Origin: Diadema setosum
Taxonomy: Eukaryota > Echinodermata > Echinoidea > Diadematoida > Diadematidae
Reading direction: 5' to 3'
Assembly (NCBI RefSeq): GCF_964275005.1
Contig: NC_092700.1
Location: forward strand, 20,217,015-20,281,014
Length of the DNA stretch: 64,000 bases
Numbering within the stretch: the stretch's first letter is position 1; each line of letters starts with the position of its first letter. A program made the translations under genes and the position numbers. Below, piece after piece: positions 19,851 through 47,209 of this stretch. The notes under the pieces are model-generated. The model was given only the letters and a program-made list of their open reading frames with translations, ran no database searches and was not told where the DNA came from.

Positions 19851-20191
19851 AATCAGCTCATCAACTCAATTTAGCAATTTCTATCATTTGAATCCCACGC
19901 CATTTTGAGTTTTTTCCCCCTGCATGTTTTCATTAACAAACTTATGTAATGAAACAGCATCCATGGTTGTGTGGTTCATACAGTTACCTTTAAATGATAA
20001 TGAAAACGAAATGTTAATTAATCTCAATGTACTGTTATCCTCATTTTATGAGTGGTTAGATGAACATGAATAAGTAGATGTTATCAAGCTTTAAGGGCGT
20101 CTCAAACATAATTTTCATGTATTGATGTATGCATAATACTCACTCTCCTAAATATATCCTTCTTTGAATTATGTCGATATACAGACCAACC

Positions 20192-23100
20192 ATGTCAAAC
20201 TACTACGCAGGCGACTCCACGGTCATGTGGATCGTGGTACTCGCTTTCATTATCTCCTTTATCTTGGCCATGGGCCTGGGAGCCAACGATGTCGCCAACT
20301 CGTTCGGTACGTCCGTTGGCGCCAAGGTGCTCACCTTGTACAAAGCCTGCATCGTTGCCGCCATTTTCGAGACCGGCGGCGCCATACTGCTTGGCTACCG
20401 GGTATCGGACACTATACGGAAAGGTCTGTTTAATCCCGATCTTTACTACGGACGAGAGGAACTGCTAATGGTGGGAAATCTCTGTGCCCTGGCAGGTAAA
20501 GAGTTCTTCCCCTAAACACACTCTTGATGTATTAATTGTGTATACCTTCCAAGTTGGCGCACACAAGCTTTGGAATAGAGTATCCGATGTTATGAACGAG
20601 GCAATGGCCAACGTAAAAAATCCTCTAAAAACCCATTTTCCACACTTAGAATGCGTAGTAAGGTATTTACACATGAAAATATTGGCATGTCGTGATTTGT
20701 TTAGACCTGCTTCCTTGCTGATATCCCGCTTTCTCGTCTTTCTTTATTACTCTTCAACTCTCACTGCTCTAATGAATGTGCATATCTTCGCACAGACTTT
20801 ATTTGGGGTGCACGTCACGAGTCATACAGCCTAAGATCTCGACACTATTAAAGTGAACGAGGCCCAGGAGCTCGATACCAAATAAAATAGGCTATACGGT
20901 CCACCAGCTCGACATGAGGCCAATGAGTCCGACACTAATCAAACAAGGCCCACGAGTCCGACACTGGAAAAGTAGCCCCAGAGACAGACATTACATCGCG
21001 GGGTTTGATGTACATATTGTACACAGTGTCGGTCTTGTGGGCCTATTTTGTCTCGTGTTGGATGCGTGGGTTGTGTTTGCCTATCAAATGTCGGAGCGTG
21101 AGCCTTATTTGCCTATCAAATGTCGGAGCGTGAGCCTTATTTGCGTACTGTCAAACTCATGGACCTTATTTGCCTAGTATTGAACTGGTGGACCTTTTTT
21201 TTTTGCGTAGTCTCGAGCTCACGTTGGTAGACTCCGTTATTTGCTTTGTGAGAGATGTTATCAGTGATATTAAAAAAAATCGTCAATATTATTTGAATAT
21301 TGACTGTAACTGTATTTTTCAAAAATTGAATTAATAGTAGCAATAATTATGGGTCATTGTTCAAAATTAATATATAATACCAATCCAGCAGCTCGAAGGC
21401 TGACACGGTTGTTTTTACCATCGCACTCACAGAGTTCACAACTAAAATCAATGTACTTAAAACTTTCAATATTATAATAAGTATGAAAATGAAAAACAGC
21501 CCAAATCTTAAAAGATACAAGCCGGACCTAAGCTTTCATCATGGAATAGGTAAGTATTGCACAACAGGAAATGAAATTTAGGATTGTATAATGTACAGTG
21601 CAAAGAATGTGGAGAAAATGGAATGGTAGAATAGGAGTAAAAGTGGGGGAAATAGGTACAATGAACAAAAGCATGAAAACTGAAAGCAAGACCTTTCTCC
21701 TACTATCCTATCTCTACGCAAGTCATCTCTCCCTCCTATTTTCTTTCCGAAGTGTATCATGTACGGGGGCTGCACGCAATACTATTCAAGCTACGCTTAT
21801 GCTGTAGCCCACTGTATTATTCATTGCTGTATTGCTGATACGTTTTGCTGTACATTGTGTAAAGGCAATGAAGAGAATATTTTTGTTAACAACTCATGTT
21901 TATGTAAAGGTATGGCACGAACAATGTATGTATGTACATATACAATGATAATACAGGAACCGATGAATAAAGTCAAATTGATATAGTATCGATCAAACAT
22001 TATAGGCAGGAATATAGATGATAAGCACAGTGTCTCTTCTGTCCATTTCTCTTCCTCATTTTTCTTGCTCTCCTTACAAAGCGTGTAAATAGGAACCGAT
22101 GTCTGTTGAGATGTGTGGTATAGAAATATAGTTTACTTTTTAATGCTGTTATCATTATCATCTGTATCATTACTACTTATACTAATTCGCATTATTATCA
22201 TTTCAATAAATATTCACATATCGCTTCTCTATATCCATCTCATATAACTGTTGAACATTTTTGTCACCTATCTCGGATCTCTTCTCATGGGACTTTTCTT
22301 TCTAAAAGATTCTTTGTTGCCATTTGCTGTGATTGTTATAGTTTGACCGTAGGTTTGTAAAAGTTCTTCTCTTTTCCAAATTGATGACGACTGTTAAAGA
22401 ACGAGTTTGGAAGAAATTGTTTGTTGGTCCCGACAGTCGAGTCACTGCACGCACCATCAGCGAATCTAAATAGAGCAACTTTCATTAACCCTTGTACCAC
22501 GTTTATTTCCTGTCCATGCACTCCCACACCTCTATATCATTTCTTTGTAGGGGGCCTATACCTCAGTAACGTCACGGCGAGATACCTGCTGGGAGCTGAC
22601 TACTGATTTCCTAAAGTCAGTGCCGTAGTGAGCACTACCGAAAGTGAGCGCGCAGCCCGCAAGGAAGCGCGTACACACGAGCAGTGTGCGCAGAGGCAGC
22701 GCTGAGCCGCAGCGTTGGCATGAACACAAGCAGAGCAGCATATCCGCTGTTAACTTTCTTTGGTGAGCTAGCTAAACCTAGCCTGGGCCGGCGCCGGCGG
22801 TGCTCGTACACGGCCAAGTACGCATCGTGTATTGTCATATCTCTCTCCCCCTTCTTGTCTTCATTTTTTTTTTTTTTTTTTTTTTGCCAGAGGCGTGAGA
22901 GAAAGTGAGGCGTGAGAAAACGAATGCTGGGATGGTGAGCGTGAGTTGGCTAGGGTTAGGGTTAGGGTTAGAGAAAGACTTGATATGTGTGCTGCCGCAA
23001 GAAAACCATACTAGTTGAATTAAAAAAAAGTTATTGTTTGTCAAAGTATAGGTATAAGTTGTACACCACAAATCTTTTCGTGTGTAAATCATGTTACGAA

Positions 23101-23612
23101 ATCATCAGTAGGCCATCTTCGCTGCAGTTATTTTTGAACTGTCTGTAACAATTGTCTTTAAGAAGTATCTTTGCGAATGTCACTCGCCCACCTTTCTTGT
23201 TGTTGTTGTTTCTCAAAGAGGGCAAAAAGGCTGATTGAAAGTAGGCCTATCACATTCCGATACATTCTTTGTTTCTGTTTCACGTTGGGCTGGCCAGGAT
23301 CCTGCATTTGGCTTTTTACCGCCACGGCCCTCTCCGTACCCGTGTCTGCTACACATAGCATTGTAGGCGCATCTCTTGGATTTCACATGGTCATTTTTGG
23401 CGGCGAAGGAGTGGCATGGGAGGTTGTCGTTACAATTGGTAAGTACTTTTTCTTTTCTTTATCATTCTTTTACTTATGTGATTGTGTGTGATTGTGTGTG
23501 TGTGTGTGTGTGTGTGAGTGCGCGTGTATGATGTAATGCCCTGCATTGCATATTCGGTAATATCAAAGATGCATACTATTATTTGGTATTAATGGTGTGC
23601 ACATTTGTGTGC

Positions 23613-23653
<41 letters not shown>

Positions 23654-26600
23654 TTTGTGTGTGCACGTGAGGTGGGGGAGGGTAGGAGAGATAGGACGAT
23701 ATGTATTCGCGTATATTTCTGTAAGAGTGGAAATTAAATATTATGTTCGTGCACGAGAATAGTTAAAAGGTGTTAAAGATGTTCCTGATCCATCACCACA
23801 TAATATCGCAAACGCGCGTTTTATGGTACGTTAGCGGATGAATGTGATGTGTGGTAAGTTAAATGCGGCGAGATTTAGTTGGAAGGACTGAGTCCGACAT
23901 TTACAATAGACCAAAGTCTGGTAATCCATAGTTTCAAAGATTAAAGATTCAAAATCGACCAGACCAAAATGCATTAAAGTTTTATAAGTATTTCAGTTGT
24001 CCATTGTGCTTTTTCTTTCTTTTTGATAATAATTATGTGTTTTGATATGTCATCGGTTCCATTTTCCATAAAAAGAATACTTTTTCACAGTTTTATGAAT
24101 TGCTGACAGTGTGAGGTTCACGTTTTCCATAAAAAGAATACTTTTTCACAGTTTTATGAATTGCTGACAGTGTGAGGTTCACATGAGATTAGAGACTACT
24201 TGAAACTTTAAAGGGACTGTACAGTACTGGTTGAGGTGGGGATTCATGTTTTGAACAATCCTAAGAGAGATAATGAAAAGCCTCTTATGAAATAAGAAAT
24301 ATGAAAGAGCATCTAATTTTAAGAAGGATTCAACGTTTATTTGATGAAAATTGGTTTTCAAATGGCTGAGATATCCAAAAAAAGTGCTAATAATAAAAGG
24401 CGGCATGCCACAACTTTATTAGGATCTCTTTGTTTCACCTTGCTTTTGGATATCTCAGCCATTTCAAAACCGATTTTCATCGATATAACTTTTGATACCC
24501 CTTAGAACTGCATGCTCTTTGATATCTCATAGAGTGGTTTCTGAATATCTCGCAAAACGTTAAAAGCTAAATCCTCACCTCGACCAGAACTGTACATACC
24601 CTTTAATACGGAAAAAAAAAAATCATACGAATGACGGAGAGACGGTGACTTTGTTTCCAGGCAGATTGAGAGTGACTATAAGTATCCGTCAACGATTGAA
24701 CTTGGCTAGTGTCCGAGAGCAATCTTTGAGCGATATAGATGAACTGAATACGACCCACTATACACTTATTTGTTCTAGATCTATCATTGTACATGGTGTA
24801 GTGGCTCTTCATCTCAAACGGCGTGTCTGTATACGAAGTCATTATCTCTATGATTGCGTTAGGCAAGAGCAAATACGCCTCGGACGATAGCTCTACAAGT
24901 CGTAGACACTTGACCTACAGGGAACTTTGGAGAACGGGCATTTCTAACTCGGTGATAGCTGATAAGAACACCCTCATGTCTGTCACATGCTGAACAAGGT
25001 TTGCCTCATGATGGTTGCTGCGAGCGTTGGGGCCAGTATCAGAGAACATAGTTGTCTTCTTCTTCCTTTTTTTTTTGTCATGAGATAATGAGCATTCTTA
25101 TCTGCTTCAGGTGATGAAATTCCCATATTTCCCTATGAACAACAACACACTGAATTCTGGATCTGAGACAAATTACGATTTACTGCTTGTGACTGTTCTA
25201 AATAAGTTTTGCAATGGGCTAATGAGACCTATGTGTGTTCATGTGTATGTGCGTGTGCGTGTGTGTGTGCGCGCGCGTGTGTGTGTATGTGTGTGTGTGT
25301 GTGTGTGTGTTTGCATCAGAATGAAAACTACAAAGAAAAAAGTGTCAGGATCTCAACTTATCGTTTAAAACAGTTTAATGTCTTACTCTCAAAGTGTCAT
25401 GTTGTAGTTTCCTATCTTTGGTGGTGTCTTAAAATTTCGGAAAGAGCGCGGAAATCACAGAAATCGGGCAAAGTTATCATTAATTTTTTCCGAAGCCCGC
25501 TGGCATGGATGTTTATATATGACATATGTAATACATAATTATATAATATATATATAAATAATTATATGATATAATATCATGGACCAAGTAGAATCTTCAA
25601 CGTGTGCATCATACATTAAACCGAAGCAAGTGATTTCAGATGAATGTATAATTTACTTGATAATAATTCCAGATAAAACATGTAATATAACTAAATAAAA
25701 GATACATTAATTACTCGTACATCACATTAACATGAGAATGCAAACTTGTGTCGGTTGTTTTGATATTGATACGATAATTTAAGCATATTTCATCAGGGAT
25801 TTGAATGCGTTAACCCCCCTCCCCCCCCCCAAAAAAAAAAGAAAAAGAAAGCGTCTTCAACACACATACAAAAGTTGTAATTGCAAAATTTTTCCCAGAC
25901 ATGAATTATTTCGTTAATTCGTCAAATTTTTCGTCATTTTTATGGATGGATGTCTTTTTCTCCTTACGTTTTCCTTCCAGTGATTTCCTGGTTTGGGTCC
26001 CCAATTTTATCTGGCTTAATCTCTTCGTGTATCTATGGTGTTTTGAACTACACTGTTTTGAAGCCGGTAAGTTTCTGTCGTCAAAATAAATAAACTAAAC
26101 TAAAGCTAAATGGCAGCAGTTTGGTGACTAATGTAAAAATGCTCATTGCTCGAAATAACATTCACCTGATGAAAAAAACAAACGCACATAAAGTAACTTA
26201 CAAAGGGAGACTAACATTTAAATATAGCCCTGGCGTTGATAGACTTTGTGTATTATCACCTTACATGTCCTGCGCCTCTTTTGTCACATCGGAAGAAAAA
26301 CATGATGGTTTCATTGACGAGGCGTAATGTCGAAATGGTCCCAGCTCATGGTGCCGCCAAAATGTCTTCATGTATAGTTTGAGCTTATTGTAACAAACTA
26401 CGCATGTTCTTTTGTAAGCGTTACACAATTTCAAGTTTTCAAATGATGTATGGTGACAAAATTGGTCAGCTTGACATTCAGTAAAACCACCTGATATAAA
26501 TTGATAAGGCAGTTTATGTGTTGTCACTGCCAAAACAGGAAGACCCGATGAAGATTGGAGTGTACACAACACCGTTTTGGTATTTCGCTGTCATCTTCGT

Positions 26601-29600
26601 CAACTTCTTCTCAATCTTCTTCGGATCATCGCTACGTAAGTTTCTGCCTGTCTATCAAATATTCATTTCTTCTCAAATTATTACCTGAAATTCAACTCAC
26701 AATGGTGCCACAGCATCTACCGAGACATCTTTAACCACAATGACGGCGGTGCAACATCTCATTGCCTTCAAAATCATATTTCACACACAAACACACGCAT
26801 ACATGCACACACGCGCGGACGGATTTTGCAGTGCAGCCTAATATAGATTGTCTCCATGACAACCAGCAGGCAGCACCTTGTGTAGGAATTGCACTGTTCT
26901 AAGGCTCACAAATACTGCAGCTACTAAAGCTTAGCGACGCACATGACGTGATGTTCTTATTATTTTGTCTCCCTAATTCCTCATTCTTTCTAGCCACTGA
27001 TATAATTATCATAAATCTCTTTAATGAATCCATGATCTGCGAAGACCAAAGGGATAAATGCTTGTACAAGACATGCTTTTGATTAATCTCCCTGTTTCCA
27101 TGTTAAATCATGATCTATGATGATGATCTTTATGATTATTCATCGGTATTTTCGTTATCTTTTTTGTGTTGCTGCTTTTATTCAAAATTTTCTTTCGTCA
27201 CGCTAATAAGCTAGTGGTAATAACTCAGTAATCAAATGGGACGGAATGCACTCACAAAGAGGCACATTTACAATCCGTTCCATATTAGACAACTTTGTTC
27301 TCACCACTACCGTACAATACCAACTTTCTTTTTAACCACAATATATTATCCAATATGAACTTACGCCATAACGTGCCTCGTAGAATGTAGAGTCTTTGCA
27401 TCTGTAAATGATCTAAACGTGGAAAGAGCACTCCGGTACTAATTGTGCTGTGGTCATAAGGCGCAACCGGCGCCATGTTTTCAAAAGTGTTGGGGCAGTT
27501 TATATTTCTAGTGCCACTTCCGGGTTTCATCAGCTAACAACTAAAAAAAAAAAAAAAAAGGTCTCCAGCGAAACTTCTGGTACCACTTCCGGGTTTCATC
27601 AGGTAACCCCCCCCCCAAAAAAAAAAAAAAAAAAAAAACAACAACAACAACAACAACCAAACCAAACCAAAACAAAACAAAAACAAAAAAGGCCTTACCG
27701 CGCCCCCACGTAAAAAAAAAGAAAAAAAAAGATTCGCTTTGCTATTACAACTTACAAATTGAAATCGGCTTTAATAACCACATGCTATTTCGCCGTCCCT
27801 GTAATGTAATGGGGCTCTTCTTTTCTTCACTCTTCTCAGTCTTTGGCTTCGACGAGCTGTGGATCGTCTTTGTGATCGCCATTGGTGGCGGGCTCGTCAT
27901 GGCTGGCTTCGGGTACTTCTTCGTGGTCCCATACACACAGAGGAAAGTCTACGGTTAGTACGCCTGGTTAACCTTTAACTGTAAAAGAGGTCACTACTAT
28001 GCAATTTTGGCACTCATCCAAATTAGCTGACTTGCTGATTAGGCCAGACCGTGCATTATAATCCCACTGTGAGTCTTTAACTTCAACACGCATTTCCCAT
28101 AGACACCTGCCCGAGTATACTCGGGACTCGTCCTCAACGGGTTAAAGGGCTTCCGTCACAATGTTATTTTGCTTTGAATAAAAACAGAAACTCAGAAAAG
28201 TCAATCGTTTGTTTGTTTGTTTGTTTGTTTGTTTTTTTTTTGGGGGGGGGGGCGGAGGGGGTAGCAGACAAACAAAACAGTTATGAACTGATGCAGTTCA
28301 GAGACAAAGGCAAATTGGCAACTCTGCGTGACGTAGATGCTGAGCAGCGCTCCATTATTTTTGTCTTGAACACAAAATTTCATTTGTTTGTTTGTTTGTT
28401 TGTTTGTTTGTTTACGAGAGAAATTGTTTTCAGATCTCTTCTTGGGAGTAAAATGCGTTTTCGCATGTCATCCTCAGCGGATAAGTTCTTTCTGTGCCAA
28501 AATATTTAAGAAAAAGGAAAACTGGTGAAATTTGGTATACAAAACCAATGGAGAACTGCTGAACATCTACGTCACACACGGTTTACAATGATATATAATA
28601 ATAATAATAATACATTTTACATTACATTTGTAATGTGCTTAATACAGTGTTTCTAAGCGGAAAGGGAAAAGTAGAAAGTAATTTGTCTTACTTTATCAGT
28701 TCATTTCATCAGTTCTATTACCCCCCCCCAAAAAAAAAAAATGATTGATCTACTTTTTTCTGATAGCAGACGAAACACACAAACGCACACGCACGCGCAC
28801 AAACAAATTAACACACACAGTGTCACACGCACAAATAATGCAAGCCTCTCTCATCTGTTTCTTTCATTTTCAGAAATTCGCAGGGATTTGAGGCTTAAGG
28901 CCGCAGAAGAAGGAAGAGGGGAAAAGCAACAAGAGGAAACAGAAATTGAGGAAAGTAAGTACACCCAGCTGTGGAAAGACATTCGCAAGTGATGACCATG
29001 ACTAACTTTGCCACACTATTTTTGCCCGCACGTGCAACAAGACTATATGGCGGGAAAATGTTTGAGAATCATTAAGAGTCAGAAACAACGGATCGTATAA
29101 TAGGCGAAGATAAACTTGCATGCCAGAGAAATAAAAGAATGAGAGAAAGAGAAATAGAGAGAGAGAGAGAGAGAGAGAGGCAGAGATAGAAAGAGAGAGA
29201 GAGAGAGAGAGAGTAGTGTCAGATAAGGGATAGCGAATACATCGGTGTCGTTGGTTTTGAAAAGTAGGCCTGATATTCCTCTCGGATTTTTTTTTTTTTT
29301 TTTTTTCGCAGAGGTTTTTTTTTTTTTTTTTTTTTTTTAGTGACATGAATGCCAAATTAGCCTTTAGATGACTGCATATAACAAAGAAAGGCACTATCAA
29401 ATTAATCCCAGAAGCAGTTGTCCTTGTAGAATATATATCTCTTTATCTTTATCTTCTCAGCGTCCCTCGACAAACCTAATGGTAACGCCAACGGAATAAC
29501 AGAGGGCGCCGCTAACGGTCATGTCAAGACAGAAAAAGTCGATCCCGACCATCCGGACGCCATCTTGGTTCCCGACACTCAAGTCAACGGTAAATGAGAG

Positions 29601-32600
29601 GACATAAGCAGCTTTTTTAAAGATACCAGGGCGCCGTTTTATCAAAAGATAAAATCGATTTTAAATTTCCTTACCACACAGGCTGCCATACAATAGACTT
29701 ACAGTTGAAATAACCTATAATAATCAATTTTAACTCTTCATATAAACAGGGCCCAGCACTTGGGTTGGTGAAATGAAGGGTGAAACACTTGAAGCCTGAA
29801 AAAAAAACAAAACCCAAACTTGTAAGCCTTATGATCACAAACATAAATATGCCACGTTTCTGTCCTTTCGAAGTTGAAGATTTTGAACATGTATTATTTC
29901 CGTCTGCTGTTTACATGTCTGTGACGTCACACCATCAGAAAACCGGTGGACTCAAGGAGACAGTGACGCTTTGTAGGTCATGTGAGTTCAGAAGCAAGTG
30001 TAAGTGACGAAAAGATCATTTTTTTTAAAGGTGATAACGAACAAAGTTCAACAGGTCAGTGTTAAATGGTTTGTAGGCATGATTTGCGGATTCATCTTGT
30101 ATAGGCCTTATATAACAATCTGTTACGTTGTTTTCATTGCAACAAACTGTAAGCCAGTATTACCTTCGATTCTTTTTTTTTTAAATTTGGTAATGGACAG
30201 GCAATCCTCCCGATTACGACAACATCGACCTGAACGAAACCGAAGGCGGCGATGACGACGGCTCTGGTAAGGCTTCCAAGTGGATGGTCAAAAAGGGGTC
30301 TAAGGAGTGGGAATCGGTCGAGGATACCCCCGAGGTTCGCGCCATCTGCGCTCCGTTACAGGTGGTCTCGGCCTGCTTCGCTGCTTTCTCTCACGGCGGC
30401 AACGACGTCAGGTGAGGTGGAGTGCTTTAACGTGTAACCTGTTACAAACCCATTCCACTACTTCCCCACTCAAGCTTCTGACTACGACCCTGTATTGAAG
30501 TTCGTCGAAATATAAAATGGACTCATCTTGGCTGAGTAAAGTGGAGAAGCAATTTTATATACGAAAGATATCATTGCAACATAGTACTATGTTCAGTATT
30601 CCTCAGAAAAGCTTTAAACGGAACCAATACCTTCATTTGAAGCTATTTCTGTTCCAATGCTATGATGTTCGAAGTAATCCCTGTAAGTTTGAGTCAAATG
30701 AGGCAAGGGGTAAGGAAATTCTTCTCTGAAATCCAAATATGGCACGTTGTAAAGCATTTTTGCAAGCGCATATTTCTTTTTAAAAAAAAATTGAACCATG
30801 TTTATATAAATCATGTGTACAGAGAAAACTTTAAGATACTGAAATTTTGTGTAGGAAATGAATGGAGAGTTTTCCACAAGTTCCGCCCTGAGTGAGCTTA
30901 TCACCCTCTACGGTTAATTTATTCAAGTTGTAGCTGTAGTTGTAGCTTCCTTATTCCTTGTGCGATTAGGCTCAAATTTGCAATAGATAATATGCCAAGC
31001 ATTTGAATAAGAGAAACTTCTGAAAATATTGGTTCCCTTTAACACATTCATCAAGAGGACAAGCTGAACTTTATGCAACGAATATGTCGGGAAAAATAAC
31101 TGTAGTGTAACGACAATTTTTATCTCATCAAGAAACACATGACGCACTTATCTCGCTTTCATATATAGACCGCAGATGGAATTTATCAACTCCACGTTAT
31201 CCAATAAGAAACCGAATTTCTACATTCTGAAGTAGAGATAGAACTAAATCAACGCCTTGGTCATGCTGGTTTGAACTTCAGTTTTAGTTGTAATTCATTG
31301 TGCGTTGATGTTTTACGTTGATGTCTATTTTTTTTCTTTAACTGTCTCTCTGTTTCTCTGTTCGGCTATCTGTCTGTCTGTTTGTCTGCTTTTCTGTCTG
31401 TCTGTCTGTCTTTTCCTCATTTACTCGCATGCAGTAATGCCATCGGACCGCTGATTAGCTTGTGGATCATATTCACCACGGGATCGGTATCTCAAGATGC
31501 CGTTACGCCAGTATGGATTCTCTTCTACGGTGGGGCAGGAATCTCGGTCGGACTCTTTCTCCTGGGCAGTCGCGTCATCAAAACCGTTGGCGAAGACCTC
31601 ACACCGATGACACCCTCTAAGTAAGTATACACCAGTCACGAGTGAAAGCAGGGCATCCAAGACATTCAATTGACATGATGTCATTTGCTTTCGAGCCCGA
31701 TGCAGAAGACACTTGTCCCGCTTTGGTAAAATACCTTGAAAACCATATCTATGTACTTTAAAAAGTTCACTCGCAATAATAATTATGAAGCACTTCATTG
31801 TTAGACATGATTTTAGCCCAGACCCAATCAAAGGGATTGTATGTGTTACTCTAATTGTCGTTGCCCTTGAGAAAGGACTGGTGGTAATAGGCCTCCGTGT
31901 GTCCCATAATAATTGTCTTGTGAGTGGAAACACAAAGTCAACGTTTGCTAGATCAGCATGACATAATTCTGGAATATCATGTGTCCTATCGGCTTCTTTC
32001 TGTCTCACGTAATCGCCTGATAATCAAAAGCATTATATTGCAGTATAATTATCGTTAGAATAAGAGTAACACAAAATCCTTGCATATTATGTGCAATGGC
32101 TTTTGTAATAAGAAAACAAATTTTCATCTGACACTTTAGGGAACTTTGACTTCGAGTTCGAAGCGCTGTAGATTCAATAATATCGTTGTTTCTTTGCAGG
32201 ACTGCTTGAAACTCCAAAGAAAATCAATGAATATTTTATTGTTTTTTTTTTTCATTCAAGAATAATAGAGAATTTCATGAGTTCGTCTTGCTTCTGTTCC
32301 TTTACAGTGGCTTCTGCATCGAGTTGGGTTCAGCCATCACCGTACTCCTAGCCTCGAACCTCGGCATCCCCATCTCAACCACTCACTGCCAAGTGGGCTC
32401 CGTCTGCAGCATTGGCTGGCTGCGGACTCGCAAGGCCGTGGACTGGCCGCTCTTCTCCGGTATCTTCCTGGCGTGGGTTGTCACCCTGCCGGCGACAATC
32501 ATGCTCAGTGCTGCCCTCATGGGTCTACTCCAACACACCGTACCCGGCGGCTGCGACATTCAGCCCCTCGTCCCCAACATTACCACCACTACTGTGTCGG

Positions 32601-32632
32601 CGGCCGCAGCTGCAATGGGCGTAGAACTTTAA
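20192..32632 (+). CDS. SLC20A: Sodium-dependent phosphate transporter, SLC20/PiT family (10 coding exons, complete)
   Basis: Na+-coupled inorganic phosphate importer of the plasma membrane. Coding exons: 20192-20495, 23298-23438, 25981-26066, 26539-26635, 27840-27953, 28874-28954, 29461-29589, 30201-30411, 31435-31620, 32308-32632. All introns are GT-AG and the joined frame is open for 557 aa. Both inverted PiT signatures are present: [11 protein letters not shown] at residues 30-40, and [15 protein letters not shown] at about 380-394, the latter split by the exon 8/9 junction. Other family matches are [14 protein letters not shown] in exon 2 and [16 protein letters not shown] in exon 10. The hydrophilic central loop (about residues 240-363, exons 6-8, rich in Glu, Lys, Asn and Gly) is roughly half the length of the vertebrate PiT loop, so the protein is shorter than the usual 650-680 aa. 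I chose the ATG at 20192 because a good acceptor (TACAG at 20184) lies 7 nt before it. An in-frame ATG at 20171 lies inside the presumed intron. Family identity is very sure; PiT1 versus PiT2 orthology is not resolved. Confidence 0.95.
20545..20640 (+). mobile_element. Small LINE C-terminal remnant
   Basis: Translation reads [13 protein letters not shown] followed by NPLKTHF, resembling the end of non-LTR reverse transcriptase ORFs (LWNSLP then LKTHLF). Very short and decayed. Confidence 0.4.
20805..21238. repeat. TU-like foldback element, copy 3 (in SLC20 intron 1)
   Basis: Same family as 757-1155 and 7433-7725. The left end GGGGTGCACGTCACGAGTCA equals the copy 2 left end. Left-arm units contain GGCCCACGAGTCCGACACT; right-arm units contain the inverse. 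A 32-bp unit is perfectly duplicated in tandem inside the right arm (repeat starts at 21079 and 21111), so unit number is still changing. Centre near 21010. Confidence 0.78.
22560..22830. promoter_or_regulatory. CpG-rich patch inside SLC20 intron 1
   Basis: Dense CpG sequence (AGCGCGCAGCCCGC, GGAAGCGCGTACACACG, GGCCGGCGCCGGCGG) with a CRE-like ACGTCA near 22569. It could be an alternative promoter, an unannotated exon or an inserted element. No protein family was recognised on either strand. Confidence 0.3.
22951..22971 (+). repeat. Short interstitial TTAGGG array
   Basis: About three and a half units of the animal telomere repeat inside an intron. Confidence 0.8.
23610..23652 (+). repeat. 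(TG)n microsatellite
   Basis: Long pure TG run, with a second TG run just upstream at about 23482-23518. Likely length-polymorphic. Confidence 0.85.
24062..24182 (+). repeat. Perfect tandem duplication, 61-bp period
   Basis: The block beginning TTTTCCATAAAAAGAATACT occurs at 24062 and again at 24123, identical for 60 bases. Identity inside an intron points to a recent event. Confidence 0.9.
24208..24606. repeat. Palindromic MITE (TTAAAGGG family), best copy, 399 bp
   Basis: Ends are TTAAAGGGACTGTACAGTAC and its imperfect inverse GTACATACCCTTTAA. The whole element folds back: GGTTTTCAAATGGCTGAGAT on the left matches the inverse ATCTCAGCCATTTCAAAACC on the right. No ORF. It is non-autonomous; the superfamily is not certain (a TTAA or TA target would fit). 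Confidence 0.78.
25233..25312 (+). repeat. (TG)n/(CG)n microsatellite
   Basis: Alternating purine-pyrimidine run with a CGCGCGCG core, a sequence type able to adopt Z-DNA. It creates artefactual Val/Cys-rich open frames. Confidence 0.8.
26067..27839 (+). other. SLC20 introns 3 and 4
   Basis: Intron 3 (26067-26538) has nothing recognised. Intron 4 (26636-27839) holds a CA-rich stretch near 26780, a direct duplication of CCACTTCCGGGTTTCATCAG (27514 and 27583) and long poly-C/poly-A/CAA runs (27608-27690). Confidence 0.6.
28087..28147. repeat. Dispersed repeat block, copy 1
   Basis: Shares GCATTTCCCAT and then an identical 27-base stretch ending CCTCAACGGGTTAA with 48383-48443. The family is unknown; the edge GGGTTAA may be a terminus. 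Confidence 0.6.
28322..28581. repeat. Inverted-repeat (foldback) element in SLC20 intron 5
   Basis: The left arm CGTGACGTAGATGCTGAGCA (from about 28327) pairs with a right arm containing TGCTGAACATCTACGTCAC (about 28557-28575). Pairing continues inward for about 55 bp with mismatches. No ORF; a decayed MITE is likely. Confidence 0.6.
28955..31434 (+). other. SLC20 introns 6, 7 and 8
   Basis: Intron 6 (28955-29460) has GA microsatellites (29157-29213) and poly-T runs. Introns 7 (29590-30200) and 8 (30412-31434) contain nothing recognised beyond a CTGT-rich stretch before the exon 9 acceptor. Confidence 0.55.
31621..32307 (+). other. SLC20 intron 9, nothing recognised
   Basis: Ordinary AT-rich intron. 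A long minus-strand frame overlaps it and exon 9, but it is antisense to conserved SLC20 codons. Confidence 0.6.
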
Positions 32633-36797: not shown

Positions 36798-38906
36798 ATG
36801 GCGAGAACATGCTTTTTGGTTTCAGCGCTGTTTCTGCTAGTCGTGTCTGGTCATCTCGTCGCAAGTGCGCCACAGCTACCTTCTACGACATCATGTAGGT
36901 ATTTCTACCAGCAGTAGATACGTAAATATGTACATTACTGTTTGTGTGGACGTATGCATGTATGTACGGTATGCATGCATGTATGTTGGTATGTGTGTAC
37001 GTATAATTATGCATACATACATTTATACACTTTAAATGTTCTTACATCTATCGGTACGTTGGAAAATAAGCCTCTGAAGATTTACAGATTTAGATGTTGC
37101 ATTCCTCTCCGATAAAGAACTATGAACAGGACCAACCAAATGCACGGAGCAGGCAAGTGGAGAGGGGGGGGGGGGGTATGTATGAAATATGTCTCAATTT
37201 GGACACGTCATGCTAACAGAAGGAGGGTAAGAATCGATTTAGAAATATAACCCTTCCCCTTTAAAAAAAAGACAGAAAAACTTTGTTAAGTAATAATCAG
37301 ACTAGTTTAGTTCAGTTTATATAGTTTCAGTTAACACAAAAAAAAAAACCAAACAAAACAGACGTAACAATAATGACATAGCAATAAGAACTATGGTTGC
37401 TGGGGGGGGGGGGGGCTACTGAAAAGGACGAGACTTTGAACCGGTGGTCCGGTAAAGAGACGAACATCTTCCAATAGTCTACTCATACCAATAGCATGAG
37501 AGACAGTGCGATACGAAGAGATTATGTTCTTACTATATCTTGATAAAATACGATCATAGAGGTTACACGAATGTAACCCATGGATGTAATCCAATCTCAA
37601 GCGGGCGCACATTGTGTACACAAAGCTGATTACAAGAAAAATGGCGAGGTTATGTAACTTTGCAACGTGAGTAACATTTATTTTTCCAGGGGATAGATAA
37701 TTGTGATGCAGACAGTTTTGTAAGTGAAACTCGAAGCTGCAATATAACACCACACAACAGGTTGTTTCTTCCAAACCTTTGAGACGAAAATGGGAGGAAC
37801 TGACAATTGCATTTTGCAGGTCCTTTTCAAATGTCGACTTCTGGTTTATAAAGAACATGCCCAGGAGATCTGAAAATTCACCCATGCAGTGTGAGTGAGT
37901 TCATAATTATGGAGAGTTTGATCGTTAACGTTACTCCATTCCTATCAATATGAAATATTCACTATCAAACCTGCAAAGAATCAAAAAGAACAAGAAAATA
38001 TGTTCTATTTTGGACCACAACTTCACGAATATTTGTTGTCATGCAAGAAGTGAGGTATCATTGGGAAGATATTGTTTTGCTCTGTGAGACAATGGACTTA
38101 AAGGAGACCTCCCGATGATTTTCAGAATTTTACATTTGAACAACTATAAATTAGTTATACTGAATACAGAGTTTCAGAATGTTTTCAAAATTTATAACAA
38201 ATTGCACTGAACAAGGATGATGACATAGCAGCCATTTATAATGGAATTACACTGCTACATTTCTGAAATATGTGAGGCTCCTATGTCATCAACACTGTTC
38301 AGTGTAATTTGTTGTCAAAGATTTTCATAGTATTGGTTTCTCTGTTCAAGGACCACAATAAATTACACAAATCTATACACGGAGCTGTCGATTTATGCAC
38401 TACATGACGTGAAATGTTAAAAATCGTCTGGAATTTCCCTTTAATGTTGGAAAAAATGCGCTTAATCCGTTTCGCAATCAGATTCTTCGTATATAATAAC
38501 AAATAGACACTGCGGGCAGTGGTTTCGCAAGTTAAGGGGTTCGACTGAAAAAAAAAAGGAGTTAGTTGTTATCAATCCGGGCACGAGAAGTTTTGGTAGG
38601 TCTTAAAATGTTTACCCCCTATCATGTCTGTCTGAGTTCATTCCCCTATCAATTTGGACAGGGACCAAAACAAATAAAACTTACAATAGCATCACGTAAT
38701 TAAACTCATCTCTTCTTATCATCTGGTAGAAAGTTCAATGAGAAATCTCCCACACCTACTTCCTTGATATGATATATCACATATCCTCGTCACTTTGATT
38801 GTTTTGGTTAGATCTTCTTGTCATCGGAACTGTAAGATTAAGTTCTCGCATTTTCGTGTGGCGAGTCTATAGGCATGTGCACGTGCATCATTGTGTACGT
38901 GCATCA

Positions 38907-38939
<33 letters not shown>

Positions 38940-40315
38940 GGTGTGTATGTGTGCGTGATGTACACGATTTACAACGAAAATACAAAACAAAATGCGATAA
39001 AGACATTATAGTACACGAATGATTACAAATCTTTTCAATCACATTTCACAATCTAATTACTTCTAAAGGGTTCGTTTGTTCTAATACTACAGAAGTAAAG
39101 AGTAACGGTATGTTGGTCTGACACAATCATTTGAAGGGTTTGAGGAAAAAAATCACATTGACATTAATGTTTGTTCTCTGAAGTCAAGTTGCGCAGGCAC
39201 ATGTGTTATCAGCATGTTATCCACTGATCTATAATGGGCGTGATGCAGATAAGAATTCAATGCTGGTAAATCATCCAGTAAAAACGAAAAGGGAAGTGAT
39301 TTTAGGAACGTTTTCAGCTATTTTCCCACAAGTGTCTATGATTGTCCGTCAGTAATATAATTCGATTAAAGAAGAACAAGGAGAAAGAGTTTCATCACTA
39401 CATTACTTTTTTTTTCTCTTAGATATGTTTACAGTGATCTGTCCTAACAATCAGAACGTAGGGTTCATATCGCAAAGTCCGTCTTTTCTTGAATGCCCGT
39501 GTGTTGTTTTCATAGGTCTCCGTTGCTTTGATAGGCAGAAAGATCCTTAACATATCGAATAGTCGCAAGGGTGACAGGGCATTGCTTTCAAAGATCAATT
39601 TGATCAAACCGATTACACACTGGTAGTGGAGGAAGACTCACTGTACATGACTGTAATCGTTGTTTACACTCGGTCCTGAATCAGATGTAGCACCCTCAAA
39701 ACAACATTAGGTTCATGTGGCATGAACGCGATAGGGGTAGATTAGAGCCATTATTCATTATTTCCATACACATTATCTCTGCATTGATTAAAGATGATTG
39801 CTATGCGCATGCGTGTTACAGTAACCTGCCGTTTTCTTCCATCTACTACAGCTGTCTACGTGCATGTTTTGGATTAAGTGGATGTTTGTAAATCAATGTT
39901 TTGATCGGCTGGCCAGGCGCGCATAACAAAACCTAGAAAGGACTTTGATACTTTGACAGGGACCCAATATCTGTAATACATGTATGTACATATTTCAGTA
40001 ATACATCATTATGTATGTATACATCCTACTCATATGTATGAATGCGTGTATGTATACATTTACGTATGTATGTATGAATTACGTTCATGTAAATATTTAA
40101 TTTTATTTCATTTCATTTATTAGGTTTCCACACAAATCTTACAGTGTTGTATTTACAGCATCCATTAATGACAATGTAAAGTGACACATAAATAATAAGT
40201 TATAAGTTTAGTATAATTATTATGTAATAAAATTGTGTGTGGAAGGAACCTACATAGAAGCAGATGCTTGTAGGAGTACAATTGTAGGTTCCCGAAATCA
40301 ACACAGACTCTTACA

Positions 40316-40349
<34 letters not shown>

Positions 40350-43300
40350 ACACGCACGCAAGTATGTCGTAGAATAAAAACAATAATATGTCATAGAACA
40401 AAAGCAACAATATGTCATAGAATAAAAGCAATAACTTTCAAGCTCTTGTAACCTGGCGGTGTTTCTCGATCTGAGCAGTGATCTCGTGACTGTTTCCTAA
40501 AGATTATATTTTCGATGTGGAATGTATAATATGTAATTTTAAGCTTGATCACTTCAGAAGAAAAAGTTGGTGTTGTATACATTCAATGCATAACATTCTG
40601 AAATTATGCAAAATAACTGCACTGTTGTCGACAAAAGCACAATGGACAAAGGTCTCTATACGGGAACTTCCTGAAAAAAAAAAATATTCCATTTGCTCCG
40701 TGAAAACTATGCACATGTGCAAAAAAGGAGCAACATTTTATTAGAGGTTATTAATTTCTATCCACCCACACATAGATAGTTTGTAGATTCAACAGCATTA
40801 TTCTACAAAGAATGTGGGTATTAAATGAAAGATCTATCAGCATGATCAGATCGGAAAAAGTCAACAAACTATTTTTAATATAATATACTTTTGAAAGAAT
40901 GATTGGATAGATTTGCATTACAGCCAAACCTACGGCTGACCTAAATTGTGTGACCTCCATTGGCATTTCCATTGGTTTGGAACTGACATTGTAAAGTAAA
41001 CAAAGCAAAGGTCTATAACAGCGTACCCTTCCATTTACCAACGTTGTCATGGATAAAGAAGGAAGGTTTATCATTATCATTACCGCTCATCACTCTTTTC
41101 ATCTCCCCCTTCCCCTATCTGCCCTTAGCTGTTACAACAAACATAACGGAACAAGACTAAACAAAACCAATCACACAAACTAATGCATATCCGTGTCTGT
41201 AAATGGTTACACTGTAGGTGTCTATTTGGTAACTGAGAGTTACACCTAAACCCTTTCTCTCTATCGCCGCAGATGGCGTTCGACTATTTGGCTCTGAGTC
41301 GAATGACACCAAAAAAGGCTTGCTGCAAATCAGGACGGGAAAATCTGGCTCGTGGCTCTTTTTCGACGCCGACTCGCTCGGACTGACAGGGGCGAGGCTG
41401 GCTTGTCGACAGCTGGGCTTCCCGTACCTCTGCTCCAAATCGGCCGAGGTGGTGCCTGGGATTACAGAGGATGACATCTTCTCTCTGGACGTCCACTGCC
41501 TGGGCGAGGAGGCGTCTCTTGACAGCTGTCCTACCAGTGGCCGAGGCGTGCAGCCCTCTCGCATTCAGTCTGTTGCCAGTTTTAGCCTCCTCTCCATTAC
41601 TTGTGCCAACGAAGATGGTAAAATAGAAGTCAAGTCATCTTCCTGTCTCTCACGTCACTTTCCTTCCTTTCCTCCCCCTACCTCGTTTTGAAGAGTTTGA
41701 GAATGGAGGAGAACGGAGTACTTTTGTCACTACGCACTACAGTTTTTGTACTTCTAGAGATTTGCGCCCAATATTTTCAAATTGACCTCATGTTATTTGT
41801 ACACGTATCTAGTATATTCGCTGGAAATAAATGTCATTGAACCAGAGCCCGAACTTTTGGTTTTGAGGATTTTGACATCACAGATAGTCGAACATTATAC
41901 ATCGGGCCTACTCCATCTATCAAGGCCATGATGGTAGACTGTAAAAATACATGCAGTCTGGTGAAAGGGATGATTGGCGTAATCATCTACTTGAAGATGT
42001 AGAAAAAAAACCCGAGGCCGACTTAATATACGTACAACTCTGATGAGATAATTTCAATTCAAACCCCGCAACCATTCTGTTTCCTCATCTCTCCTTCCTT
42101 GGGGCCATGGTGTACAGTGTATAGGGCTCCTCATTGTCCTAAGGGTGGCTCGAGTTAAAACTTTGACAACCCTGAGTAAGCAAAACCACTGTCAGTAGTA
42201 GCAGTTATAGTTCAATCTTTAAAATCGTGTCGATTATTCTATCAATGATAATGTTCCCTTTATATCTATGGTACAAACTACAAGTTAGAATAATGTATTC
42301 ATGTTCTAAATTGTTTTTGTTGCTTTAGTTTAACAACATTGGAGAATGTGTAAACATTAAAATTAGCAACTGGACAGGGGTCTACTTTTTTGTCGCGGTG
42401 TGGTCTATAATCACGATAATAGCAGCTGAGCCAAATAATGTACTTTAATACAATCAATTTAATTGATATTACGTGTAATATAGGCTTACTATCACTATGA
42501 GATTCTCCTATATTTCGTTCTTTTCCATGTGCACGTGTCGGAAGCAGATATTACCTTGCGCCTTGTGAACGGCTCATCGCAGCATCAAGGTACGGTGGAA
42601 TATAAGTGTTCCTCCCATCCGGAATGGCTCAACGTTTGTTTCGATGACTGGTACCCGGCCGCAGCCGATACCCTCTGCGCCACTCTGGGATTTAGAGGGA
42701 CCGTGGACGACGTCGGCATCACCCTCCCCACCGCCCCCTTGTCCGACATCGGCTTCATCTGCTCGGCGCGCCAACACGAAGATCATCTTTTTGACTGTAT
42801 GATGACTGAGGCTGAATGTGTCTCAGGCCATGCAGCATCCGTTTCGTGTGGCTTAGGTAAAAGTGAAAAGCAAAATCTAGCATCGATATCATACTGGTGT
42901 TTTTCCTTTGTGGTACTTTCCATGTTTCATCGATGTGTTATGGCAAAAATATTTAAATTAAATCAGGAGAATAGTACTACACGCCTTAGAGACGAAACTC
43001 TGGCCTCCTTTAGTTACCAAGAGGTCACTGGTGCAAACTCCTCCCAAAGATGTTTTATCCGCTATGCATAAATTTTCGTAGAAGATGTGTAAAAATTCAA
43101 ACAAAGAAAGTGGAATAATTGATAAAGGATTGCTAAGTCTAAAAATTGATATGACTTGTAAATAAAAACTGAAAGTCAGTAGCAGTATCAAATGTGTATT
43201 TGTTCCGATTTCGCGTCAGGTCGCGCAGCTCGTAAACAACGAAATACCGATTAATGAAATCTAGATGGGCCCTACGTTTCATGGTAGCTACAAACCTTTG

Positions 43301-46300
43301 CTCATCTTCAACTGCTCACCCGTCCCCCAACTATCTCCTGGACCTACAATGTACTTTCACAAAATATGGTCATCTGTACCTTTGTACAATTCTAAGGAAC
43401 AAGTTACTAACCAAGATCCGAAACACCACAAATATAGGATGTTGTTCATGCTTGATTTGAATTATACTTGTTCAAGCAGCCCATGTATTTCAATCCTTTG
43501 AAAACTTTCGTACCACACGCTCTATACTCTATAATTTTACCGTTATAAGACTAATGATATTTATCATTATTATTGCAATTATTACTATTATTTTTTTATC
43601 ATTATCATCATTGTTATTGCAATCATCATCATCATCATTATTATTATTATTATCATTATTGATAGCAGTAGTAGTAGTAGATTTGGCAGAGCACTGTTTA
43701 ACGGAGTATCAATGAACATTTGCCAGTGTTTTATTTCTGATTCCAGCAATTGAAGTTTATGGAGAGGAGACTACCCTCTGTGATGCCTCTCACACTTGCC
43801 GAGGCAGCTGCGGCAACTCAACCCGAGCCGGATGCAGGTGCGACGAGGACTGTACATTCTTCAATGACTGCTGCTTTGACTTTGTCACTGAATGTGGTGC
43901 TGATGACATCCCCGAAGACCACTCCGTAAAACCCTCCGGTTCATCTCTTGATGTGTCCGTCTATTCCTGCGAAAAGCCCCTGGGAGGACTATCCCAGATC
44001 TATGCCGGTTCGGAGGGATATTATCTTATCAGACAATGTCCTCCAACGACTGAGTCGAGTCTTCGAGAACAGTGTATAGGGTCGGGTGGTAGTCTTGACG
44101 TGATAAGAAACTTGCCAGTATACGACAGCGATGGGAACTCGTATTTTAACGTGTTCTGCGCGGTGTGTCATGGGAAGTCTCTCAGTGACCTAACGCCATG
44201 GCGTATTGAAGCAGAACCTGCGGAAAATTTCATTTCAAGCGAAATGATAATATATTACGTAGTGCTTCCGCCATGGGACGACTCCAAGAGGACCAGGCCC
44301 TGTTTTAGGGATGGGTCCGTAGTAGATACCTGTCCCAGTTCCCTTGCAAACTCGTCACTTGCGGAAGCTTGCAGAGCGTACCAGGCACCACTGAGGGACT
44401 CGACAGGAACGTTCGCTTACCGGAACCCGCACTGCTTTCAGTGCCAGGACGACTGGAACGGTCAGCTTCCCATAGAGTACTGCACCGGGTGCGAGTGTCA
44501 GGGAGCTTCGTGCTTCCTCAGGTGCGCTGGAACCAGATCAGGTCGCCTCACCTCCGTCACTTTGCTCTTTGATTTCATGGAGTCCGACAGAACAGAGTGC
44601 ACAGGTATCGGTGAAGTCTATGATATGTTTTTGAAGAGATGCCGCGTTTTAGTATGTCCAGAGGGGATGACGTATGATCATGGAACGTGCGTGTATTCCT
44701 TGCAGAATACGACAGTCCATTCCACCGTAATGGATTGCTTGTCCTCTGCCATTGCATCAAGTTTGCCCCAAGTATTACAGATCATCATCGAGAAAAACGT
44801 GACGTCAGACACTCATTGGGCAAATATTTTCGCTGAAGACGTCCACAGAGCTGAATCTATAGACCTCACCCTTGCTTCAGTGTTTGCAACTTCTAACCAA
44901 CACGTACGCCCGTTTTGCAACCTCACTCGAGTATCGCTGATGGCACCACACATGCATACCAATGATACGCCTTCATCGTGTAGTGATATTGTGAGAATGC
45001 CTTTAGCTGATGAGAGTTTGCGAATCATTGACACGTGGTATGCTAATTCATCGGGATGGAACAGAACGCAACTAGTTTTTAACGATTACCGCTTTGTCAG
45101 AAACTCCACTGAATACTCAAGCAACCCACCATCCGAGGATTGCTGGTTTGAGTTATTCAACATCTTGCTATGTAACCTACAGATCTATTCAAATGAGCAG
45201 TTTGTCATCGACGAGGAGAACGTGGCGCATCATGTTCCCTCGGGTGTGTCACTCGCTCCTGAAGAGTACTTCTTGCTCCGTAACGGAAGCATTGTTACTT
45301 GTCCGGATTCCCTAAATATGGCTGCCAACATCCAGAGCATCATCTATATGACTGGAGCGAGTGCGTCTGTTATATTCCTGATGGCGACCTTGGTAACGTA
45401 TGCCACCTTCCCGAAGCTCAGGAACGTAGCGGGCAAGTGTTTGATGAATGTGACCGTTGCTCTCCTCGGAGCGAATCTGATCTTCGTGCTCAACCCGCTG
45501 TTCAGCCTCGAACGCACCCTGTGCACTGTCGTGGCGGCCCTCGCTCACTTCTTTTGGCTCAGCGTCTTCTGCTGGATGAACGTGGTCGGAATCAACATGG
45601 CGCGCACTTTCGGCTGGACAGGTTCCAGCTCTCTGAAATCAGACAGAGGTTGTTCCAAGGGAACGCTCATCTCCTACGCCCTCTACGGTTGGGGGATACC
45701 ATTTCTCATCGTTGCTGCCTGTACCGCCATCCACATCTGCCAGTGCGCCGGAATGCGGTTTCAATACGGGAGTTCCCTAGTCTGTTGGATCGACGGAGAG
45801 GAGAGGGCTTTATTGTACGGGGTCACCGTCCCCATCTATGTCGCCATTTTCTTGAACGTGCTACTACTTGCATACACTGCGATCTCGCTCATTAGACACA
45901 GGAGAGAGGGAAGATCGTTGAGGGCGCACCAGACACAAATATTTTCGGAGAATGTGGTAATAGTAGCAAAGGTGAGGCGAATAACCTGTTCCTCTTTTAT
46001 TTCCTCAGTTTCTATATCCAATCACAAGACTTATCCAGTGTTAGGAACTGCTTTTCATTTTCCAGATTTTGTCTGCCAAGGGCGATGCAGATAACTATTA
46101 ACTCATCATAATCGTATTCTGTTTATGTCTATGTAATGTATGCCACTGATTTTCTCTAACTACTTTTAGGCTTGTATGCATCTTCATGTTTTTGTTTTTG
46201 TTTTTGTTTTTTTTTTTTGGGGGGGGGGGCGTGTACTGTCGCTATATGCTCTTTGGAATGAAGTTTATATGTCTCTGCACCCTCGTTTTCTCATAATTCA

Positions 46301-47209
46301 ATACTTTCTGTTAATCTCCTTTGTTCTCTAGATTGTAAAATATAAATATGATAGTTGTAACATCATATAAGTATGGCAAGTGGCAAGTTTTGAGTGCCTC
46401 TGTCCTTGATGCCTATGATCTATTCATCTACCACACTGATTTTTTTTTCCGTTTCAAAGTCATCGTAAGTTCATTATGTTACTTATCAATAAGGTCAAAA
46501 TATTTTTTTTACATCAAAATCAATGTGTGACTATGTTGCATTATAAAGAAAATAGAGTTTGAATGTAAAACCACATTATATAGTCATCTTATCAACTTGA
46601 GATATTTGAGATTTATGTTCTTTAGAAAAGGATTTAAACAATACAGTAATGTATGTGATAGTTTTGATAAAATCTTCGATATCTCTTTGATATGCCACTA
46701 GTGTAGAGTGATTGAAGAGACTTAATTTTTGTTTCCTTGATGACGAACTTTCTTAAAAAAAAACCAACTTCCAAAATGGAGTTTATCTACTTTTCCATCC
46801 AAACTTGATTCCAATAGTGTAATTTGTTTCGTAAAGTCTTTTTGAGAGAGCATTATTCACACGATGTGCCATGCACATTATTTTGCTCGTTCGGCTACAT
46901 GTCCTTATTGTAAATCTTTGAACATTTCCCCGCCCTTTTTCTCCCAAGCTTTCCGTGGTTCTTGGAACGGCCTGGATTTTCGGGTTCGCCTACAGCTTCA
47001 CGGACGGCAATGTCGTCATGTACATCTTCGTCACCTTAACCTCCCTCCAGGGAACCTTCCTCTTTCTATTCTTTGGGGCCACGAAACGCATCCGGGACAT
47101 GTGGAGGTCAAAGTTCAAGAAGGAGAAAATCACATCGGTGTTCACGGTGAAAGTGAACTCGTCGCAACGTTCTACCGGCAGCTCGAATACCGGTTCGACG
47201 AGCATGTAG
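36798..47209 (+). CDS. SRCR-SRCR-somatomedin-B 7TM receptor (adhesion/Methuselah-like GPCR), 5 exons, complete
   Basis: Predicted cell-surface receptor of 1078 aa. Exons: 36798-36894, 41273-41617, 42548-42856, 43747-45971, 46949-47209; GT-AG throughout, frame open. Residues 1-24 form a signal peptide (MARTCFLVSALFLLVVSG, then ASA). Residues 34-145 are SRCR 1 (ARLACRQLGFP, DVHCLGEEASLDSC). Residues 150-249 are SRCR 2 (WLNVCFDDWYPAAADTLC). Residues 262-300 are a somatomedin-B domain with spacing Cx3Cx7CxCx3Cx5CCx6C. Residues 320-775 are a Cys-rich, heavily N-glycosylatable ectodomain. The 7TM domain starts near residue 780. TM1-TM5 lie in exon 4, and TM6/TM7 (VVLGTAWIFGFAYSF; VTLTSLQGTFLFLFFG) lie in exon 5. 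A 40-residue Ser/Thr-rich tail follows. No GPS cleavage motif was found before TM1, so it is closer to Methuselah-like than to classical adhesion GPCRs. Ligand and G-protein coupling are unknown. Confidence 0.9.
37391..37885 (-). CDS. Unrecognised 164-codon open frame in receptor intron 1 (doubtful)
   Basis: An uninterrupted reading frame on the strand opposite to the host gene, long for this AT-rich sequence. It reads MGEFSDLLGMFF at one end and finishes in a Pro-rich tail that comes from a poly-C/poly-G run, which argues against a real C-terminus. No domain, signal peptide or splice context was recognised. It may be chance, a relic of an unrecognised repeat, or one exon of an antisense gene. 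Confidence 0.12.
   Translation of the reverse strand: MGEFSDLLGMFFINQKSTFEKDLQNAIVSSSHFRLKGLEETTCCVVLYCSFEFHLQNCLHHNYLSPGKINVTHVAKLHNLAIFLVISFVYTMCARLRLDYIHGLHSCNLYDRILSRYSKNIISSYRTVSHAIGMSRLLEDVRLFTGPPVQSLVLFSSPPPPQQP
38098..38444. repeat. Foldback MITE, second family with TTAAAGG/CCCTTTAA ends
   Basis: Starts TTAAAGGAGACCTCCCGATG and ends in the imperfect inverse GTCTGGAATTTCCCTTTAA. The interior also folds: ACAAATTGCACTGAACA near 38199 pairs with TGTTCAGTGTAATTTGT near 38296. Interior sequence differs from the 24208 family, but the terminal 8 bases are nearly the same, so both may have used one transposase. Confidence 0.65.
40318..40347 (+). repeat. (CA)n microsatellite
   Basis: Pure CA run in receptor intron 1. 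Confidence 0.85.
41618..43746 (+). other. Receptor introns 2 and 3
   Basis: Intron 2 (41618-42547) and intron 3 (42857-43746) hold no recognised exon. ATT/ATC-type microsatellites occur at about 43560-43680. Confidence 0.6.
42541..42547 (+). other. Tandem (NAGNAG) splice acceptor before the second SRCR exon
   Basis: The intron ends GAAGCAG. Either AG keeps phase 1 and the frame open. Cutting after 42544 adds one Ala, and cutting after 42547 starts directly with Asp-Ile-Thr-Leu. The receptor coordinates above use 42548. Confidence 0.55.
45972..46948 (+). other. Receptor intron 4
   Basis: Phase 0 intron between TM5 and TM6, donor CAAAG|GTGAGG, acceptor CCCAAG|CTTTCC. Contains a TTTTTG/poly-T/poly-G run near 46190-46228. 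Nothing else recognised. Confidence 0.65.

Follow-up and report, generated by a model that had tools for sequence, protein, structure and literature searches.

The window, as we call the whole 64,000-nt stretch of Diadema setosum DNA analysed here (C16:20217015-20281014), holds what looks, as far as DNA can show, like a real five-exon receptor gene, and our verdict is that it appears to belong to a somatomedin-B (SMB)/Methuselah-like family of class-B seven-transmembrane (7TM) receptors in which SRCR exons would form symmetric, skippable cassettes. The five exons (Table 1) add up to 3237 nt and, when joined, give an open frame without internal stop, encoding 1078 aa followed by a stop codon. 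All four introns are GT–AG, with phases 1, 1, 1 and 0, and on these grounds the coordinates and splice chain of the preliminary description are right; the chain itself we infer from the frame, the splice signals and recurrence. The frame is kept if exon 2, exon 3 or both are skipped, the resulting forms having 964, 976 and 861 codons, respectively, including the stop, and exon 3 read on into its intron meets a stop at 43069-43071. The N-terminus encoded by exon 1 is strongly hydrophobic (hydropathy 2.19 over aa 4-22), and these residues are read, from hydropathy, as a putative signal peptide. The gene lies downstream of sodium-phosphate cotransporter exons, and the other features recognised in the window are a carboxypeptidase exon and a reverse-transcriptase fragment.

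Table 1. Features of the receptor gene and its neighbours, in positions of the window
Feature	Position	Strand	Content
Exon 1	36798-36894	+	start codon, hydrophobic N-terminus, aa 1-32; donor CAT/GTAGGT
Exon 2	41273-41617	+	SRCR1, 345 nt, symmetric phase 1-1; C2 and C7 positions lost
Exon 3	42548-42856	+	SRCR2, 309 nt, symmetric phase 1-1; six group A cysteines and C168
Exon 4	43747-45971	+	SMB, duplicated Cys-rich modules, pre-TM region, TM1 to start of TM6; 741 whole codons
Somatomedin-B domain	43794-43901	+	aa 267-302; PF01033, 8 Cys, vitronectin match
Cys-rich module copy 1	44022-44183	+	aa ~343-396, YFNVFCAVCHG; hhalign to copy 2; invariant Cys
Cys-rich module copy 2	44316-44471	+	aa ~441-492; hhalign to copy 1; invariant Cys
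Pre-TM region	44586-45323	+	aa ~531-776; no GPS match, no PDB sequence match
7TM domain, first part	45336-45971	+	aa 781-992; PF00002
Exon 5	46949-47209	+	remaining 7TM (to aa 1029), short cytoplasmic tail, stop
Sodium-phosphate cotransporter exons (PHO4/SLC20-type)	20168-32629	+	four ORFs match PF01384; upstream of receptor gene
M14 zinc carboxypeptidase C-terminal exon	63051-63416	+	PF00246, 1.8e-11
Reverse-transcriptase fragment, perhaps LINE remnant	19307-19615	-	PF00078, 2.3e-4, below curated cut-off

The Pfam SRCR model (PF00530) matches two stretches of the joined protein (1.9e-15) and also matches exon 2 (2.6e-9) and exon 3 (7.6e-10) when each is taken alone, always above the curated cut-off. 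Exon 3 additionally matches PF15494 (5.1e-9), and comparison with PDB sequences gives CD163/PIT54 for the SRCR part (~5e-13). SRCR domains of group A follow a pattern of six numbered cysteines, and CDDxW is the acidic motif of SRCR. Set against this pattern, SRCR1 is without C2 and C7 by both cysteine list and alignment, a pair that we take to be one canonical disulfide, and is also without the acidic motif; SRCR2 keeps all six cysteines, and its acidic pair before the tryptophan is retained, shifted by one place (CFDDW). Each of the two domains has in addition one cysteine outside the group A pattern, at aa 86 and aa 168, and these two could pair between SRCR1 and SRCR2.

The Somatomedin_B match reaches 8.9e-6 in the whole protein and 9.9e-8 for an 84-aa piece alone, above the curated cut-off, with eight cysteines spaced C-3-C-7-C-1-C-3-C-5-CC-6-C, and the PDB comparison of this part gives vitronectin (0.0043). 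Thus, two domains of the SRCR type and a clear eight-cysteine SMB domain, both claimed in the preliminary description, are borne out by the profile matches, while its long Cys-rich region stands in part: a tandem-duplicated module, CP..C..PV..YxNxxCAxCHG, was identified (hhalign of copy against copy, 97.3%, E 1.7e-11), but for a stretch of 246 aa before TM1 (aa ~531-776) the PDB sequence comparison gave no match. The region before TM1 is predicted to be beta-rich and has near-invariant cysteines. Family fold models of this region, of low to moderate confidence, gave weak fold matches only, and the GAIN domain was absent among the fold matches listed.

The membrane domain matches Pfam 7tm_2 (PF00002) over aa 781-1029 (6.8e-27, above the curated cut-off) and, in the PDB comparison, ADGRG6 (4.8e-25). 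By profile comparison and Foldseek, it is nearest to the adhesion receptors ADGRG6, ADGRG2, ADGRL3 and CD97, and the ectodomain of ~750 aa carries the adhesion-type modules SRCR, SRCR and SMB. In a Pfam scan of the 1078-aa protein, GPS, HormR/HRM (the hallmark ectodomain of class B1 secretin receptors) and Methuselah_N (PF06652) were all without match at E<=1, a threshold at which the HMMER filters drop most matches above 0.1, and the cleavage-type motif H-[LMIVFT]-[ST] was not found in the protein. The earlier reading of a 7TM domain lacking a GPS agrees with this result; the adhesion/Methuselah-like assignment made at the same time is supported by the nearness to adhesion GPCRs, a support that stops short of membership in the Methuselah clade itself. 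Methuselah_N is described as occurring in arthropods only (PMC4768249), so that its absence does not exclude the wider Methuselah clade.

The extent of the finding is larger than the preliminary description said, since the genomic sequence points to a receptor family and not a single fusion. A translated search of the animal's own genome (912.7 Mb, 102 contigs) returned 73 matches, comprising 4 of this gene, 39 other 7TM-matching places and 30 second ectodomain matches; the paralogous exons therefore number at least 39, taken from the best 43 of 612 candidates scored. When 14 of these exons were scanned with Pfam, 7tm_2 was found in 13, the exception being the nearest paralogue, L006, which gave no 7tm_2 match at E<=0.1. 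SMB was present in 10 of the 14 at E<=0.1 and above the curated cut-off in one, again L006, and GPS in none (E<=0.1; 0.01 for L017). A simple SMB-type cysteine pattern was seen in 15 of 18 receptor ORFs, several of which lose their 5' end at the locus border, and the instance at residue 179 of L017 may be due to chance. Two paralogues have an in-frame stop inside the match (G000:C9:32573866-32574750, TAG, and G000:C17:35952385-35953194, TGA) and are possible pseudogenes, unless the match overruns the exon end. At the paralogue at 37.48 Mb on C5, the SMB-end match (query 278-351; L057:3295-3729, + strand) lies in an ORF apart from the L023 receptor ORF, and this gene may therefore have one more intron.

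Upstream stretches of ~3-7.6 kb were read for 24 of the 39 paralogues with an SRCR model built from five seeds. Ten carry SRCR exons there, on the receptor's own strand; the C9 cluster accounts for six of them (1 to 4 exons each), C5 for three and C16 for one (L032/L006). In the corresponding stretches of the other 14, this model found no SRCR exon. The accepted exons scored 18.4 to 157 bits, against a best of 8.8 bits on reversed sequence, a control that covered 16 of the 24 stretches. Because L037 supplied three of the five seeds, its own scores are high by construction; with Pfam, whose model is independent, every one of the ten genes has at least one confirmed SRCR. A phase 1-1 pair of splice sites is offered by 10 of the 13 upstream SRCR exons examined; for the remaining three, two in L037 and one in L043, no such pair was found under a simple rule. 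Acceptors of fitting phase precede the SMB motif in the paralogues, the choice among them not being unique, and the SRCR upstream of the C16 paralogue is divided between an exon of 207 nt and one of 138 nt. The SRCR exons L038:957-1340 and L050:1268-1672 of the C9 cluster are identical over 103 codons, for which very recent duplication, gene conversion and an assembly duplicate are alternative explanations.

Among nine SRCR exons of the C9 paralogues, dN/dS could be read from five close pairs, the other pairs being saturated at synonymous sites. Four of the five gave values of 0.12 to 0.25 (L038b/L039a, 0.12; L037b/c, 0.25; L051a against L051b and L051c, 0.24 and 0.20) and the fifth, L051b/c, gave 0.69 from few changes. 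The four low values indicate purifying selection, and there is therefore no general sign of an arms race; these values describe the C9 paralogues, as the window's own SRCR exons are without a close relative. A tree built from 29 receptor exons pairs the window receptor with L006 (99/97), both of them SRCR carriers, and places the remaining carriers in another clade (90/91), whose 10 rows come mostly from C5 and C9; seven of these have SRCR, two do not and one was untested. A simple single clade of SRCR carriers was rejected. In a 21-row tree of the SRCR domains, SRCR1 of the window is joined to those of the C5 genes L043 and L052 (95/90); the placement of SRCR2, near L032 and L057, is loose (83/84, open fork). 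By eye, L043 and L052 are also without C2 and C7, and because of this the degenerate state of SRCR1 looks shared and old, and not like decay of the window gene alone; the SRCRs of those C9 genes that are shown whole in the alignment keep the six group A cysteines. These trees, with their long branches, hint that an ancestral receptor had SRCRs of two kinds and that loss and copying came later. Elsewhere in the C9 cluster, L029 and L049 differ more at synonymous sites in the ectodomain (divergence 0.35) than in the 7TM part (0.061), a pattern that homogenisation of the 7TM half through gene conversion might leave.

The components of this architecture have precedents in other animals. SMB has been described on Mth/Mthl homologs of Nematostella vectensis (XP_001628572), Branchiostoma floridae (XP_002608881) and Saccoglossus kowalevskii (XP_006821924), in a paper that also describes an Mthl expansion in S. 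purpuratus (PMC4768249). Like the window receptor, these proteins combine a Somatomedin_B ectodomain with a 7tm_2 domain and lack Methuselah_N; unlike it, with its two SRCR domains, they are presented with no mention of SRCR in the text concerned, a comparison made by description only. Amphioxus adhesion GPCRs carry SMB, Kringle or SRCR, with SMB and Kringle falling within an expansion of ten genes (PMC2246102). Here, both SMB and SRCR occur on class-B receptors of one animal, as in the present case, but the text leaves unsaid if the two share one protein. SRCR joined to a class-B 7TM domain is likewise on record, as SRCR repeats on two adhesion GPCRs of the sponge Amphimedon (PMC4302439) and, in an echinoderm, among the SRCR proteins of Acanthaster planci, where 7tm_2 is one of the top five partner domains (PMC10855680, Table 1); the word somatomedin, however, is not in either main text, the full architectures being given in supplements. 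The legend of Figure 1 in a survey of sponge receptors has symbols for SRCR, somatomedin-B-like and 7TM, and leaves unsaid if they occur in one protein (PMC8242945). Methuselah-like receptors have been counted in two sea cucumbers (PMC7042368), and the adhesion GPCRs G6, G2, D1, L3 and E5 in PDB are counted among the closest known systems. In the texts available, PMC13197933 has no mention of somatomedin, SRCR or methuselah and PMC11959729 has nothing on an SRCR–SMB–7TM architecture. The suggestion that the architecture had not been described holds, then, for the full triple, which was not found in the main text of open-licence papers, but not for its parts, since the literature already has SMB with 7tm_2, SRCR with 7tm_2, and the two domain types among the adhesion GPCRs of amphioxus.

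We consider it probable that the five exons are one gene, and that the class-B 7TM receptor it encodes is a member of an expanded adhesion/Methuselah-like family with SMB and would link a ligand to a G protein. The SRCR/SMB array would bind a matrix, cell-surface or microbial ligand, and the ligand binding, or force, would reach the 7TM bundle by way of the disulfide-rich stalk; the bundle would in turn activate a heterotrimeric G protein, probably without a GAIN-cleaved tethered (Stachel) agonist, because no GPS was found. Since both SRCR exons are phase 1-1, skipping or copying of these cassettes should be tolerated and could change ligand binding with the receptor left intact. It is very unlikely, in our estimation, that the locus instead holds two neighbouring genes, with exons 1-3 coding for a small, secreted SRCR protein and exons 4-5 for a separate receptor of the SMB-7TM type, the two having been joined through phases that are compatible by chance. 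SRCR genes are indeed numerous in sea urchin, with 357 given for S. purpuratus (PMC10855680), and 14 of the 24 paralogues read were without upstream SRCR exons; however, a chance neighbourhood fits poorly with SRCR on the receptor's strand in ten out of ten positive paralogues, with phases that fit in the window and in 10 of 13 exons elsewhere, and with fitting acceptors at the SMB exon. The lack of a GPS could also be deceptive, if this were an adhesion GPCR of the ordinary kind, with a GAIN domain too diverged to be recognised that nevertheless folds and supplies the 7TM bundle with a tethered agonist. The resemblance of the 7TM domain to ADGRG6, ADGRG2, ADGRL3 and CD97 and the cysteine-bearing, predicted beta-rich region before TM1 are what such a receptor would offer, but with no GPS in the window protein (E<=1) or in the 14 paralogue exons scanned, no cleavage-type motif and no GAIN among the fold matches listed for the low-to-moderate-confidence model, we regard a hidden GAIN domain as unlikely.

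For the one-gene receptor that we favour, immune recognition is one plausible option, and adhesion or peptide sensing would fit as well. The ligand could be an endogenous peptide or matrix protein, met in development, tissue adhesion or chemosensation, with the SRCRs as structural spacers that have no immune part. We hold this to be a possibility of some substance, if a tentative one: SRCR1 departs from the reference pattern in having neither the acidic CDDxW motif nor one of the disulfide pairs, four of the five close SRCR pairs are under purifying selection, and vitronectin SMB is described as having endogenous partners (PMC2246102), but in its expansion, its tandem clusters and its varying number of SRCRs the family is like recognition families, and window SRCR2 and the C9 SRCRs shown whole keep the six group A cysteines. 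A bolder proposal, which we put forward as rather improbable, is a G-protein-coupled pattern-recognition family, in which 1-4 phase-1 SRCR cassettes, copied, shed or skipped, stand before an SMB–7TM core, such that recognition of microbes or damaged matrix would directly drive G-protein signalling without a tethered agonist.

Scavenger-type recognition proteins are usually single-pass receptors or secreted proteins. With SRCR arrays placed on a G-protein-coupled core, the capture of a ligand would lead directly to G-protein signalling; apart from the window gene, at least ten related genes in this one genome have SRCR exons upstream. Such a family would be a clean system for asking how GPS-less class-B receptors are switched on, and the skippable SRCR exons would make tests of ligand specificity simple.
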